This document shows positions 41,306-51,089 of a stretch of 56,963 nt of DNA, in pieces. The DNA comes from a virus. Position 1 is the first letter of the stretch, and every line of letters starts with the position of its first letter. The DNA lies in IMG/VR virus record IMGVR_UViG_3300030117_006614, positions 1 to 56,963 of that record; one strand, 5' to 3'. The translations under genes were made by a program, and so were the position numbers. Below the pieces are notes generated by a model that saw only the letters and a list, made by a program, of their open reading frames with translations, was not told the DNA's origin and did not search any database.

Positions 41306-41680
41306 ATGGCACTACAAGTCACCGGTTTTAATGACGACACATTTTCGTACAAGATTGTTTACGAAAGCGCAGCCACAAGCACTGCAACAGTAAATGTGAC
41401 AGGAGAACCCGGTCGGCTTTATTCTATAGATATAGACAACAAATCAGGATCAGGCGTTTTTCTTAAACTTTCAGATGCAGTTTCTCCTGTAGCTGGAACA
41501 ACGGTTCCCGATATGATTTTTAATATCGCTTCTGCGAGTGCAAAAAGAATCGACATTCCAGACGGGTGGCCGTTTACAAATTCTCTTAGCCTCTGGTGTA
41601 CGCAGAACGAGCCTGTTGGCGATACGACTGCCCCATCAGGGGGTAACGGCAACGTCCTCGTAACCCTTGTTTGCTCGTAG
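41306..41680 (+). CDS. Small beta protein, paralogue 1 of 4 (124 aa)
   Basis: A beta-sandwich-like protein with pattern: RLYSIDIDNKSGSGVFLKL (residues about 36-54), GTTVP, strands, then NSLSLWCTQNEPVGDTTAP and a final LVTLVCS strand. The same order (x-I-x-x-D-N ... L-K ... GT-x-x-P ... LS-x-W-x-x-x-x ... K-I-x-V) is seen in genes at 41689, 42264 and 42651. Probably a virion surface or fibre-tip protein duplicated during evolution. Function unknown. Confidence 0.72.
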   Translation: MALQVTGFNDDTFSYKIVYESAATSTATVNVTGEPGRLYSIDIDNKSGSGVFLKLSDAVSPVAGTTVPDMIFNIASASAKRIDIPDGWPFTNSLSLWCTQNEPVGDTTAPSGGNGNVLVTLVCS

Positions 41681-41688
41681 GAAACACA

Positions 41689-42054
41689 ATGGCTTTTACT
41701 ACTACAACAGTCCCCACCAACCTGGGCAGTACACTTGTCACCGACCTCTCAGCAAGTGCCACAGAATCTGAAGGAGTTTTTTCCGGTCAGACTAAAAGCC
41801 TGTATCTGGTAGAGATCGACAACACTGACAATTCCCACATCACATATGTAAAGCTGGCTAAGGATGCTGCTGTCACCGTGGGTACTAGTGATCCTCATTT
41901 CATATTTCCCGTACCCGCATCCAGTAAGATTACATACGCAATAGGAACAGGTATCTCCATTCCTGCTCTGTCTTTTTGGGCAGTACAGGAGGCTGCTGTG
42001 GGAGGCACGACTTCCCCGACAAACCCCGTTTCCGTAAAAATCCTTTTAACTTGA
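41689..42054 (+). CDS. Small beta protein, paralogue 2 of 4 (121 aa)
   Basis: Shares with paralogue 1 the core SLYLVEIDNTDN, YVKLAKDAAVTVGTSDPHF and ALSFWAVQEAAVGGTTSP, then VKILLT. ATG 41689 is chosen because AGGA lies six bases upstream. Followed closely by the holin-like gene. Confidence 0.72.
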   Translation: MAFTTTTVPTNLGSTLVTDLSASATESEGVFSGQTKSLYLVEIDNTDNSHITYVKLAKDAAVTVGTSDPHFIFPVPASSKITYAIGTGISIPALSFWAVQEAAVGGTTSPTNPVSVKILLT

Positions 42055-42061
42055 GGCTAAA

Positions 42062-42259
42062 ATGACCGCACTTATAGATAAGCTTTTTCATTCTCAGACT
42101 CGCGTGTCTTGGCGTCGTTTGGCTGTGCTCGCACTGGGAACTGGTCTGTTGATTTCAGGAATGCTGGATTCTGAAAAGTGGCTATATCTAGCTTTGGCTT
42201 ATATTGCTGGAGATAGTGCTGAAAAAGCTATGGCGGCAATAGGTCTTGCGAGAAAGTAG
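42062..42259 (+). CDS. Putative holin, two-segment membrane protein (65 aa)
   Basis: Two hydrophobic segments (about residues 19-33 LAVLALGTGLLISGM and 38-50 WLYLALAYIAGDS) with a basic N-terminus (HSQTRVSWRR) and a charged end. Holins open the inner membrane so endolysin can reach the cell wall; the endolysin candidate is at 43997. It sits between paralogues 2 and 3 rather than next to the endolysin, so the split may reflect insertion of the duplicated genes. Membrane assignment is by eye. Confidence 0.6.
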   Translation: MTALIDKLFHSQTRVSWRRLAVLALGTGLLISGMLDSEKWLYLALAYIAGDSAEKAMAAIGLARK

Positions 42260-42263
42260 TTGA

Positions 42264-42644
42264 ATGGCTGTAACCATCACCAGTTGGCCGCAAAGCCTGG
42301 GGTATCGGATTATTCACGATGACTCTGCCGGAACCACCGTAACCAGCAACGCTGGCGGTGTGCCCCTGAGAATACATTCTATAATTATCGACAACACAAC
42401 GGGCACTGACGAGTGTTTCCTAAAAATCTCAGACACGGTTTTAGCGACCATAGGGTCAACAGAACCCACTTGGTTGTTTATTTGTGCTTCTGGAAAAACA
42501 GCTACCTACCACGTACCCGAGGGTCTTGCGTGTAACACTGGTCTGAGTTTTTGGACTACACGGGAAGAAGCAACTTCCGATCAGACTGCCCCGGCGGTTA
42601 GTACCGGGAAAGTAAAAATAACACTACTTGTTTCGGCACTGTGA
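42264..42644 (+). CDS. Small beta protein, paralogue 3 of 4 (126 aa)
   Basis: Core RIHSIIIDNTTGTDECFLKI, GSTEPTWLFI, LSFWTTREEATSDQTAP and VKITLLVSAL match the other paralogues in order and spacing. Starts four bases after the holin stop with no strong ribosome-binding site, so it may be translated by coupling. Confidence 0.72.
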   Translation: MAVTITSWPQSLGYRIIHDDSAGTTVTSNAGGVPLRIHSIIIDNTTGTDECFLKISDTVLATIGSTEPTWLFICASGKTATYHVPEGLACNTGLSFWTTREEATSDQTAPAVSTGKVKITLLVSAL

Positions 42645-42650
42645 GGTCTG

Positions 42651-43025
42651 ATGGCAACCGTATTACAAACACCCTTAACGGCACTGGCTGATAAGCTTGT
42701 AACGGTAGACGTGCTCTCGAATGTCCCAAACAATAACGTCACAGATTCGACTGCAGGGATCATCTACCTCTTGGAAGTAGACAACCGGAATAGCGACGGT
42801 GTTGGCGCATACCTAAAGATTGCTGACGCCAGTTCAGCTACTGTCGGAACAACACAGCCCAAGCTTAGTCTGTACATTCCACCAAAAGCCAAGCAAACAT
42901 TCGCTTTCCAAAATGGTCACGCATATACCGCTGGACTGTCGCTTTGGGCTACCCGAAACCCAGCCTATACAGATAACACTAAACCCGATTCGTCTCTGAC
43001 CGTTAAGATTCTGGTGACCGCATGA
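42651..43025 (+). CDS. Small beta protein, paralogue 4 of 4 (124 aa)
   Basis: Core IIYLLEVDNRNSDGVGAYLKI, TVGTTQPKLSLYIP, LSLWATRNPAYTDNTKP and VKILVTA align with the other three. The end overlaps the next gene by ATGA. This copy most resembles paralogue 2 around the Leu-Glu-Val-Asp-Asn core. Confidence 0.72.
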   Translation: MATVLQTPLTALADKLVTVDVLSNVPNNNVTDSTAGIIYLLEVDNRNSDGVGAYLKIADASSATVGTTQPKLSLYIPPKAKQTFAFQNGHAYTAGLSLWATRNPAYTDNTKPDSSLTVKILVTA

Positions 43026-47214: not shown

Positions 47215-47417
47215 TGTTCTTCCTTTTCTTGGTTTTGATAGAAACTCTCAAGAGGCTCTTGAAAGACTTTTGCTGGCTTAGTTTTACCTGTCCGCCAACG
47301 ATAGACAGTCATAGAGGATGGCCCAGCGGTGTTCATGCCTTCACCCAATGCGACAGAGATTTGTTCATCTGTCCAACCGCGTAGACGTAGTATCTGTAGT
47401 TTCAATGCGTGACTCAT
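47211..47417 (-). CDS. Small HTH protein (68 aa)
   Basis: Residues about 6-50 form a helix-turn-helix of the Cro/Xre type: LKLQILRLRGWTDEQISVAL as first helices, then SSMTVYRWRTGKTKP as recognition helix. It overlaps both neighbours in ATGA and has AGGAG seven bases upstream. A Cro-like regulator of the replication arm is likely, but no repressor partner is seen. Confidence 0.72.
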   Translation of the reverse strand: MSHALKLQILRLRGWTDEQISVALGEGMNTAGPSSMTVYRWRTGKTKPAKVFQEPLESFYQNQEKEEQ

Positions 47418-48433
47418 GCTGTTACTCCTGCGGCATCGGTTGTTGCCAAAACAGTCAACGGACTATCAACCTCATTCCCCCAAACATGCCAGCCTTCACT
47501 ACGCTCTCGCGCAAACAACTCCAGTTTCAGTTGGTCTGGAAACATCTGTTCAATGCGTTCGCGCACTTCCCCAGGTTTTCGGCTGTGCTCTTGGCGTGCT
47601 GCCGATATAAATTGGCGCACGTTGCGGGCACCTCGGGGTTTTGGGATTTTACCCCGTTTGCCAATCAGACATAGTTCACATTGGCTCATGGTGTAGAAAC
47701 CGGGATTTACTTTCTGCTTATCCCACACGAAACCCACTGTAGCCCACTCAAAGCCCCAAGCTTTTAGCAACTCTATTCCTTGGTCTAAGTGGGGGCTTGT
47801 TACCCACATAAACAACAAACAATCTTGGGCAGCTAAAGAAGCTATATCCAACTTTTTTAGTTCTTTTAATGTCATGGTGGGGTAGTGTTTTTCTGCCCCT
47901 CCAGTTTCTTTGCCCCCCTTACCGTTGTGTTGTTTTTGGCCTTTGTAGTCCCACGGCGGGTCTACATACAGGATTTCAAACTTTGGGGTAAGAGGCAGGG
48001 GTATTTGTGTCCCTGCTGGCTTGGGACGCTTCGTACATACGACCCGCCAACCCCAAGTCCAATCCTCAGAGTCCACCTCTTCAACACGGGCAACCTTTGT
48101 TATGCCTGTACCCTTTTCCCCACTCCACCAGAAAACGGGCTTTCCAGCTTCAAGAGCCATATTAAGAATACGGGCTGTGGCTCTTCCAACCTTTTCTCCC
48201 GACGTAACGAAAACATCGTAAACAGGTTTCCCCGTAGTCAGGTTCTTTTTGTGGACTACGCCATGCTCCCAAGCATCCCAATCTCCCTTCCAGTTTGCAG
48301 CGTGGTCACTGCGACCTGTGCGTACACGTACAGTTCTATCTGAACGGGCTTGCAGGGTTTCTAAAAGCTGGTGAGCAGCTTCTTCGATTTCGGCAGGGGT
48401 TTCGTGGTATCCGTGTGCATAAAAAACTCGCAT
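47414..48433 (-). CDS. MT-A70-family adenine methyltransferase with N-terminal extension (339 aa)
   Basis: The C-terminal two thirds is an MT-A70-type N6-adenine DNA methyltransferase: EILYVDPPWDYKGQ with the catalytic DPPW at 158-161, then LFMWVTSPHLDQGIELLKAWGFEW and CELCLIGKRGK strands of the Rossmann-like core. It methylates adenine in DNA using S-adenosylmethionine and may hide phage DNA from host restriction. The first 140 residues are a distinct domain (MRVFYAHGYHETPAEIEEA, YDVFVTSGEKVGRATARILNMAL, GKPVFWWSG) that resembles Rossmann/TIR-like or nucleoside-deoxyribosyltransferase-like folds by pattern; its role is unknown. The ATG is coupled to the polymerase stop (TAATG) behind GGAGG. 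Confidence 0.85.
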   Translation of the reverse strand: MRVFYAHGYHETPAEIEEAAHQLLETLQARSDRTVRVRTGRSDHAANWKGDWDAWEHGVVHKKNLTTGKPVYDVFVTSGEKVGRATARILNMALEAGKPVFWWSGEKGTGITKVARVEEVDSEDWTWGWRVVCTKRPKPAGTQIPLPLTPKFEILYVDPPWDYKGQKQHNGKGGKETGGAEKHYPTMTLKELKKLDIASLAAQDCLLFMWVTSPHLDQGIELLKAWGFEWATVGFVWDKQKVNPGFYTMSQCELCLIGKRGKIPKPRGARNVRQFISAARQEHSRKPGEVRERIEQMFPDQLKLELFARERSEGWHVWGNEVDSPLTVLATTDAAGVTA

Positions 48434-50958
48434 TATACCTCCAACCAGTTCATGCCGACTTCTGCTTCGGCGGTGTAAGTTAAGAGAGGTTCCACACGAC
48501 GGCGGCGAGTCATGGCAGCTTCTAGTATTTCTGCCACACGTTCACCCTCACTCTCGGGCACCTCAAACAAGAGCGAGTCATGGCACTGGTTTACCAGACC
48601 CGTCTTTTTCTCAAAATCAAACTTAATAATCTCAGAAGAATCTCCGAGCGTAGAAGACGTACCCCAGCCGGGGTTTCCATCGACCAACTCCAGCATCGCC
48701 TCATGGATGACTGATGCCCCGCCCGCCTGGATTGGGTGGTTGACCAACTCGTTTATTTTTTCTTCATCCCGAAAGTCTCTACGTCTACCCCAAATGGCGT
48801 CAGCAATAAAACCCTCCCGCCTGTAGCGATTCCGAATCTCATTCCACCATTTAGGTATTTCAGGGTCAGCACGATTCAAACCATTTACAACGGCCCGAAT
48901 GTCCCTTGGAGTCATGTGGGCATAAATGAGACTACCCGCCTCGTCTTCGACGCTGATAACTTGTTCATGGATGGTCGGGACACTGGCGGCGTATTGCCAT
49001 GCGTATCGGACACTCTTGGTAACGCCTCGCGTAGCCTTGAAAGTGCCTTTGCCCTTTTTATGTCTTTCTTTTGGCGCTCCGTCAAGGCTCCATATTCCTT
49101 GTCCATATACAATCTCCATTGTCTCATTGTGGGGGTCTGCCCCAGTGTTGATGCTTTTGACCAAACGATCGGCCTTGGCTTCTTCTGCGATAAAACGTAA
49201 TTCTAGTTGGTCTGCATCTGCCCCAACGAAGACGTGACCCGGTTGAGGTATAAAAATGTCTCGTAAAAACCCAGGTATATTTTGGGCATTAGGAGCCGAC
49301 GAGGAATACCGGCCCGTTGCTGGTAGGCGGTTGTACGCGGGGTGTACTCGCCCATCGGAAAGTACTAGGTCAGTTTTGAAGGGCGTAATGTAAGTGCTCA
49401 AAAGCTTGGTGTACCTGCGGCACATTCTTACAGCCTGCAAGAACACGGCACGCTCTTCATCGAGATTGTATTTGGTAATCATCTTACGGAGCGTGTCATC
49501 GTCCGTACTCGGGTCACCTGTTTTCTCATTATATTTAACGGGGGCAAGTTTCCAGTCTTTGAAGATGAGTGCCCGTAGTTGGGTGGTGGAGTTTGGGTTG
49601 AAGTTTTCTGGCGCAAGGTCTGTTACAAGCTTGCGGTTCTCTCTCAGCTTTTCTTGAAACTGTACTTCGTGTTCATGCAACCGATTGAAGTCCACATACA
49701 TACCCAAAGACTGCATAGATGTTCCAATCTGCTGTAGCCGGTGCTCGCGTTGGAGTAGGTGCCACTGGTTACGGTCTTTGACACACTTGCCCAAAGGTCT
49801 GGATACTTTGGCTGTGACAGCACAGTCTTTTGCGCAGTATGTGTGCAACTCTAAATCACTACGGGCATCGACAGCGGTATGGTCTGCCTTCCATGCCTCA
49901 GTAAAATCAGAATAGAAGCTGGTAACGAAACCCAAGTTGTGTGGCATTTCATTATCGGAAAGTAAGTGCAGTAAAAGGGTATCGGCATCCAGGCGGGGTG
50001 TTACACCGAAAAACTTTTCACACACCAGGCGGTCATATTGTCCTGCATTGTGGCCCAAGAGTGGTAGGGGTGGGTTACCCAAAAACTCTCTGGTCATTTC
50101 TGAAACAATGTCTTCATCAGTCGCGGTGAAGAATCTTGTGGTCCCATCTATACTTAGAAACGGGACAATCATGCTGAAGCTGGTATTGGCGAAACCGACG
50201 CACCGTAGCTGGGCGTTGAGCGGATTCTTCGCGTCTGTCTCAACGTCGTATGCTATGGGCTTGCCCATTTCTACAAGGCGTTTGAAGCCTGCAGAAACTT
50301 CTTGGGGCGTAGTGGGGAAAAACAACTCGGGGTCTTTCCAATCTAGTTTTCCCTCAAAAAAGCGTAGGGCTTTTCCTATGTCCCGCTGAAACACTGGTCG
50401 CCACTTCGGAGAGCGTAGAACAAAAGACGGGTCGAGCGTATAAGAAACTCTGGCTTTCCCCCAAGGCAAATCCAACTCTTCGCAGGCTCCGCGCATACTG
50501 GTGATGGAAGCATTACCCCCACGAAGGGTACGCATAGCTTCTGCACCAAGACAAATAATGTATTTACAACCTTCTATTTCTCGGAGCAATCTCCCTCTAC
50601 AAGCAACAGCCGGTGTAAGTAAAAGCGGTTTCTTCTCTTTTCTGAGAACCTTGTTTGCCCGCGAGTGTTTCACCATAAATGTGTCGAGCCTATTTTGTGG
50701 GGGCCGACACGAGATAGCGTAGGTGATGAGGCAGTCTTCTCGGACAATCCCCACTTCGTTGAGTGCAAGTTGAATCTCTTGGCCAGCGGGACCGACAAAG
50801 GGCCTACCCTCAAACTCTTCGTGAGTACCAGGCGTGTCGCCTATGATGGCGATGCGGTCACTAGAATGTGTCTCAGCCAACACAGGCGTAAACTTATCCT
50901 CAGTCCGCCAATGTTTTCCGAGTGAACACAGTTCACACTTTGCGCCTTCGATATTCAC
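48433..50958 (-). CDS. Family A DNA polymerase fused to a UDG-like domain (841 aa)
   Basis: Residues 1-200 match family 4 uracil-DNA glycosylase: CELC (8, 11), IIGDTPGTHEEFEGRPFVGPAG (39-59), CRPPQNR (84-90) and C120, the four Cys that would hold a 4Fe-4S cluster. The usual HPS motif is LDPS at 175-178, with Asp for His, so glycosylase activity is doubtful. A 3'-5' exonuclease follows, DVETD (238-242), GHNAGQYD (302-309), YCAKD (374-378). The polymerase domain has TGRYSSSAPNAQNIP (548-562), motif A ADADQLELR (580-588), motif B K648/Y652/Y656 and motif C CHDSLLFEV (about 800). Tyr 652 corresponds to Phe 762 of E. coli Pol I. A GTG start at 50958 is chosen for a GGGGTG site; an in-frame GTG at 51042 has none. 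Confidence 0.9.
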   Translation of the reverse strand: MNIEGAKCELCSLGKHWRTEDKFTPVLAETHSSDRIAIIGDTPGTHEEFEGRPFVGPAGQEIQLALNEVGIVREDCLITYAISCRPPQNRLDTFMVKHSRANKVLRKEKKPLLLTPAVACRGRLLREIEGCKYIICLGAEAMRTLRGGNASITSMRGACEELDLPWGKARVSYTLDPSFVLRSPKWRPVFQRDIGKALRFFEGKLDWKDPELFFPTTPQEVSAGFKRLVEMGKPIAYDVETDAKNPLNAQLRCVGFANTSFSMIVPFLSIDGTTRFFTATDEDIVSEMTREFLGNPPLPLLGHNAGQYDRLVCEKFFGVTPRLDADTLLLHLLSDNEMPHNLGFVTSFYSDFTEAWKADHTAVDARSDLELHTYCAKDCAVTAKVSRPLGKCVKDRNQWHLLQREHRLQQIGTSMQSLGMYVDFNRLHEHEVQFQEKLRENRKLVTDLAPENFNPNSTTQLRALIFKDWKLAPVKYNEKTGDPSTDDDTLRKMITKYNLDEERAVFLQAVRMCRRYTKLLSTYITPFKTDLVLSDGRVHPAYNRLPATGRYSSSAPNAQNIPGFLRDIFIPQPGHVFVGADADQLELRFIAEEAKADRLVKSINTGADPHNETMEIVYGQGIWSLDGAPKERHKKGKGTFKATRGVTKSVRYAWQYAASVPTIHEQVISVEDEAGSLIYAHMTPRDIRAVVNGLNRADPEIPKWWNEIRNRYRREGFIADAIWGRRRDFRDEEKINELVNHPIQAGGASVIHEAMLELVDGNPGWGTSSTLGDSSEIIKFDFEKKTGLVNQCHDSLLFEVPESEGERVAEILEAAMTRRRRVEPLLTYTAEAEVGMNWLEV

Positions 50959-51089
50959 CGAGCACCCCAAAAGAAGAAAAAAGAAGCAGACTATGTCCCG
51001 GCCTGCCAGCGGTGGTGCGGAGTAAAAGAAAGAAAACCGCACGGTATACAGGAAACACGGTGAAAGCGTGCAACCCGATAGGCTACTAA

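Follow-up and report, generated by a model that had tools for sequence, protein, structure and literature searches.

A uracil-DNA glycosylase-type domain fused to a viral family A DNA polymerase lacks the catalytic His and the uracil-reading Asn and is probably kept as a non-catalytic module

The virus record analyzed here (IMGVR_UViG_3300030117_006614; 56,963 bases, taken whole and called the window) encodes a family A DNA polymerase that carries, ahead of it in the same chain, a uracil-DNA glycosylase (UDG) domain and a 3'-5' exonuclease. In the UDG domain, both the His needed for catalysis and the Asn that reads uracil are replaced. Other viral polymerases have repeatedly lost these two residues together, and the altered domain is under purifying selection. 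Judging from the residue changes and from analogy with known replisomes, we consider it likely (probability about 0.6) that uracil excision has been lost and that the domain stays in the polymerase as a module that holds DNA or contacts the replisome.

The gene is read from a GTG at position 50958. An in-frame GTG upstream, at 51042, is an alternative start, with which the open frame (48433-51042, minus strand) encodes 869 aa. Pfam matches place the UDG domain and the family A polymerase in one 841-aa chain (Table 1), as proposed in an earlier reading of the DNA made without database searches (the sequence-only reading). In addition, the PHROG 17 'DNA polymerase' profile spans UDG and polymerase alike, covering residues 55-868 of the 869-aa ORF. 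The Pfam match of the exonuclease is weak and falls just short of the cut-off (23.5 versus 23.6 bits). The polymerase motifs A, B, and C are present, with the catalytic Asp in A and C and the Lys in B. Because the catalytic motifs of the exonuclease and the polymerase look intact, the polymerase is probably working and proofreading. The O-helix in motif B (RYAWQYA) carries Tyr at the position of Taq F667, and motif C reads HDS/HDA, not HDE. As in T7 polymerase, this Tyr would predict ready use of dideoxynucleotides.

Structure prediction, which the sequence-only reading had suggested as a check, gives confident models. With aligned relatives as input, AlphaFold2 models the full-length protein at a mean pLDDT of 92.8 and a pTM of 0.88, and the UDG domain alone at a pLDDT of 94.8. 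In Foldseek searches with the domain model, the best matches are the family 4 UDGs 1l9g (E 8e-16), 1vk2, 4zbx, and 1ui0, followed by UdgX, indicating a UDG fold closest to family 4.

Table 1 Features of the polymerase gene and its downstream neighbor in the window.
Feature	Position	Strand	Remarks
UDG, 3'-5' exonuclease, and family A DNA polymerase fusion	48433..50958	-	841 aa + stop
Family 4-type UDG domain, residues 1-204	50347..50958	-	PF03167, E 2.4e-16
Cys8 and Cys11, presumed Fe-S ligands 1 and 2 (KCELC)	50926..50937	-	Invariant in 57 readable family sequences
Motif 1 GDTPG, Asp41-Thr42 for Tth UDGa E41-G42	50833..50838	-	
Tyr80 (TAC) for uracil-reading Asn (Tth UDGa N80)	50719..50721	-	Alignment to Tth UDGa
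Cys84, presumed Fe-S ligand 3 (SCRPPQN)	50707..50709	-	Invariant in 57 readable family sequences
Cys120, presumed Fe-S ligand 4 (ACRGRLL)	50599..50601	-	Invariant in 58 readable family sequences
Asp176 (GAC) for motif-2 catalytic His (Tth UDGa H155)	50431..50433	-	TLDPS
3'-5' proofreading exonuclease domain	49786..50310	-	DxE, NxxxxxD, and YxxxD motifs intact
Family A polymerase domain	48439..49683	-	DNA_pol_A (PF00476), E 4.8e-48
MT-A70-type adenine methyltransferase with extra N-terminal domain, downstream	47414-48433	-	Shares 1 base with polymerase stop codon

The four Cys residues and the GRPFVGPAG motif that had been read in the first 200 residues are present, and the codon at the position of the catalytic His is indeed that of Asp. 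Alignment with the family 4 enzymes bears out the replaced His and adds three substitutions that the sequence-only reading had missed. The residues E41, G42, E47, F54, N80, N89, and H155 of Thermus thermophilus (Tth) UDGa correspond to D, T, E, F, Y, N, and D in the window. Motif 1 is GDTPG in place of the family 4 pattern GE(G/A)PG, and the domain has neither the His of the HPS motif nor the Asn at position 80. In Tth UDGa, the H155S substitution lowers k2 ~3,000-fold and leaves Km almost the same, N80 substitutions lower k2/Km more than 40-fold, and E41Q lowers k2/Km ~900-fold (PMC5387724). Since two hydrogen bonds link N80 to uracil (N3/O4), Tyr80 is at least as telling as Asp176. The four altered pocket residues include the two that weigh most for catalysis and for uracil reading, and the domain has probably lost uracil excision.

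A scan of IMG/VR yields 58 relatives, 50-98% identical. The motif-2 residue is His in 55 of the 58 readable family sequences, Asp in two (the window and a second genome, L001), and Ser in one (L036). Position 80 is Asn in 54 of 57 readable sequences and Tyr in exactly the three that lack His; L036 sits elsewhere in the tree than the window. The nearest relatives beyond L001, ~72% identical, all have His-Pro. As nearly all close relatives retain the His, its loss is recent and specific to the lineage of the window and L001. The Asp codon differs from a His codon by one base (CAC to GAC), and the sequence-only reading had named homologues with His as a sign of a sequencing error. That argument fails. 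L001 is 98% identical to the window in protein, but the synonymous divergence of the UDG domain (dS ~0.33) marks it as a clearly different genome, and it shares both the Asp and the Tyr with the window. A sequencing or assembly error at Asp176 is therefore ruled out for practical purposes.

Further scans, together with named phages, bring the set to 219 UDG domains, or 141 once made non-redundant at 95%, and almost all of them are fused to a polymerase. The His is present in 104 of the 141 and missing in 37, a ratio that gives no prevalence figure, as phages without the His served as seeds in some of the scans; of the 40 tree rows in the clade of the window, 5 lack the His. The replacements are Ser (14), Pro (8), Ala (5), Asp (3), Asn (2), Thr (2), Arg (2), and Gln (1). 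Asn80 is kept in 97 of the 104 His-bearing domains versus 8 of the 37 His-less ones. Tyr80 occurs 12 times among the 141, 11 of them in His-less domains of several independent lineages. Two of the named phages serve as examples: at positions 80 and 155, Vibrio phage VS-ABTNL-3 has Tyr and Ser, and Desulfofustis phage MD01 has Tyr and Asn.

We then place the residue states on a tree of 124 rows built from the exonuclease-polymerase part only, with the UDG region left out. The window is nested in a His-bearing clade, and the state of the His changes 18 times by parsimony, at least 13 of them on supported branches. In phylogenetically independent pairs, the Asn goes with the His in ~8 of 13 and the opposite is seen in none (median p ~0.008). 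A second tree, built under a mixture model with long branches dropped, also gives 18 changes (p 0.016). We give slightly better than even odds to the broader proposal that such domains have been converted repeatedly and independently to a non-catalytic, poxvirus-like module through coupled loss of His and Asn (often Asn to Tyr), with many before-and-after pairs.

The standalone bacterial UDGs, considered as a control for the frequency of His loss, have a readable His in 34 of 48. Among the 14 rows without one, 13 make up a separate group in which the Asn is missing too, and the 14th is a truncated alignment. A comparison of His loss between fused and standalone domains (p 0.71) was dropped, as it is confounded by this group. 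The proteins L258-L271 (standalone bacterial proteins, 1-kb loci, order of G017) are family 4-like UDGs without N80 or H155, with Ser or Thr for the former and mostly Ser for the latter; they fall below the NCBIfam cut-offs and appear to be a separate disarmed UDG family.

Several viral members of the survey differ in other ways. The fused polymerases of Lebethron and Opt-155 show another pocket change, with N80 replaced by Pro, F54 by Gly, and the His retained. The polymerase gene of L063, L066, and L068 (Lebethron, Opt-155, and MW202455) adjoins genes for dCMP deaminase, thymidylate synthase, or dUTPase. Six members (L064, L073, L074, L092, L097, and L103) have a split polymerase, with an ORF of ~570-595 aa that holds the UDG, the exonuclease, and the first part of the polymerase; behind this ORF, Vibrio phage VS-ABTNL-3 (L064) has a second 'DNA polymerase I' gene. 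In the Mel-JY34-type clade (e.g. L060, L078-L093, and L150-L221), many fused UDGs seem to lack the Fe-S cysteines and keep His and Asn, suggesting that the Fe-S cluster can go independently of the active site.

The UDG domain is under purifying selection after the loss of both residues. Between the window and L001, both already without His and Asn, dN/dS is 0.061 for the UDG domain and 0.036 for the exonuclease and polymerase. Two other His-less pairs (L195/L209 and L146/L147) give UDG-domain values of ~0.04-0.05. In the pairs L174/L175 and L153/L157, the UDG domain has a dN/dS of 0.15-0.24 versus 0.06-0.08 for the exonuclease and polymerase, indicating some relaxation of selection on these sequences. 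The residues strongly conserved in His-bearing domains and lost in His-less ones, G44, E47, N80, H155, and R161, are pocket or active-site positions; scaffold positions such as G59, E61, G121, R139, P156, and R166 are retained in the His-less domains, as is F54. R161 is kept in the window but is missing from about half of the His-less domains, which counts against a DNA-holding role, as the corresponding R184 of UdgX touches the DNA backbone.

These data bear on the other ways of reading the domain. Neutral decay, in which a useless domain is on its way out, is very improbable. The somewhat raised dN/dS of a few His-less pairs is in its favor, but the window lineage has a dN/dS of 0.06 at a dS of 0.33, where neutrality would give ~1, the predicted fold is intact, the four cysteines and the scaffold residues are conserved, and the UDG domain is present in every close relative with a readable 5' end. 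A glycosylase of altered specificity, whose pocket of D41, T42, Y80, and D176 would cut another base such as a modified pyrimidine in the DNA of phage or host, is unlikely, although it shares the purifying selection and would account for the recurrence of Tyr at position 80 in several His-less lineages. In addition, motif B of family 2 enzymes (Mug/TDG; MPSSSAR) works without this His (PMC10359453). However, the residue that replaces the His varies (S, P, A, D, N, T, R, and Q), unlike what a single new chemistry would give, and among the replication-region genes tested, no base-modification gene is recognized beside that of the polymerase, apart from the MT-A70 methyltransferase.

The remaining readings keep a connection to uracil. 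The sequence-only reading had proposed a non-cleaving sensor that pauses or steers the polymerase at template uracil. Its first half stands as a probable loss of base removal, given that the His is gone. Its second half, the sensing of uracil, could find support in the almost unchanged Km of Tth UDGa H155S, which suggests that loss of the His alone may spare uracil binding, and in the poxvirus holoenzyme, which stalls where its UDG detects template uracil (PMC11142717). This half is weakened, because the uracil-reading Asn80 is gone along with the His: a bulky Tyr takes its place, E41 and G42 are altered, and His-less domains usually lose both His and Asn. We regard a uracil reader as quite unlikely in the window. 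The eight non-redundant domains that lack the His and bear the Asn (L083, L087, L136, L153, L154, L156, L157, and L223) would be better candidates for a sensor. A slow glycosylase, with weak catalysis through Asp176 or other residues that is useful near the fork, is improbable to a slightly greater degree: N89, E47, and F54 are retained, but the His has the largest catalytic effect in family 4 and N80 is gone too. Abandoned uracil recognition with retention as a scaffold or DNA-holding part fits the sequence data better than a sensor does.

The neighborhood of the gene is that of a replication region. Upstream of the polymerase are genes for a DUF5906/VapE-like protein, an SNF2-type helicase, a PD-(D/E)XK nuclease, an HNH protein, and an AAA ATPase. 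Elsewhere in the window, at 41306-43025 on the plus strand, about four alike genes of 124-127 aa stand in a row; their sequences are similar, and they probably encode paralogous structural proteins. A dUTPase is matched in one of 19 records (a relative of the Vibrio phage), and this gene was dropped as an uninformative sign of uracil metabolism in these phages.

The preferred reading of a non-catalytic module may be laid out as follows. The N-terminal domain of the window polymerase would descend from a 4Fe-4S family 4 UDG that became part of a phage replicative polymerase. The active site looks intact in most relatives, which suggests that the ancestral fusion excised uracil, presumably at the fork. 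In the lineage of the window, neither the His that acts on the leaving group nor the Asn that gives uracil specificity remains, and catalysis and uracil reading would have been lost with them. The disarmed domain would persist through selection as part of the DNA grip of the polymerase or of its contacts in the replisome, and it probably holds DNA, by analogy with the poxvirus enzymes. Vaccinia D4 is required for processive synthesis in a role that needs no glycosylase catalysis (PMC4450493), and in the mpox holoenzyme the template uracil meets the UDG site before the polymerase (PMC11142717).

The UDG-PolA fusion itself is already known from PaBG, PHROG 17, and PDB 9qhs. The new part appears to be the recurrent loss of the His together with the Asn while the domain stays; no account of such polymerases losing the glycosylase site repeatedly turned up in the literature searched, though this absence is weak evidence, as most subscription journals lie outside that literature. 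Catalytic and disarmed versions on closely related polymerases provide natural paired comparisons, which could separate the role of a UDG in the polymerase from its role in repair. This separation matters for the replication of poxviruses and herpesviruses, where UDGs are parts of the replisome. Should the domain strengthen the hold on DNA or read the template, it would be a ready-made fusion part for engineered polymerases.

Fusions of UDG, exonuclease, and PolA have been published for PaBG and its relatives (PMC7412058). PaBG gp205, of the Lupandier jumbo phages, is a phage replicative polymerase with the same domain order as the window; compared by description, it has a uracil-removing domain, and the available text of that report mentions no loss of catalytic residues (PMC7412058). 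The phage polymerases of PHROG 17 likewise combine the three domains in one chain, as a generic family whose description is silent on the catalytic state of the UDG. The N-terminal part of PDB 9qhs, the phiLo family A DNA polymerase with a modified template, matches the window UDG domain by structure (Foldseek E 2.4e-6) and by sequence, with motif 2 outside the visible alignments; one of the searches that turned it up used a made-up consensus query. It differs in length (1142 residues) and is ~20% identical to the window.

Among the standalone enzymes, the family 4 UDGa proteins (Thermus 1ui0 and Thermotoga 1vk2) have in common with the window the fold, the four cysteines, the frame of motif 1, GRPFVG, and CRPPQN, but their E41, G42, N80, and H155 are all replaced in the window. 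UdgX, annotated as a uracil-DNA-binding protein, has a related fold and, unlike the window, keeps the motif-B His (HPS, H178). Its KRRIH cross-linking loop and GEQPG are absent from the window translation, and a UdgX-like cross-linking enzyme is ruled out because the KRRIH loop is missing. The psi subunit of Pol III, considered as a second precedent for an inactive UDG fold, was set aside, as the papers found gave it no support. The parallel that we propose is with the D4 (UNG), A20, and E9 proteins of vaccinia and mpox viruses. D4 belongs to another UDG family, is a separate subunit, serves a family B polymerase, and has intact catalytic residues; what the window domain would share with it is a UDG fold that acts as a processivity part independently of catalysis.
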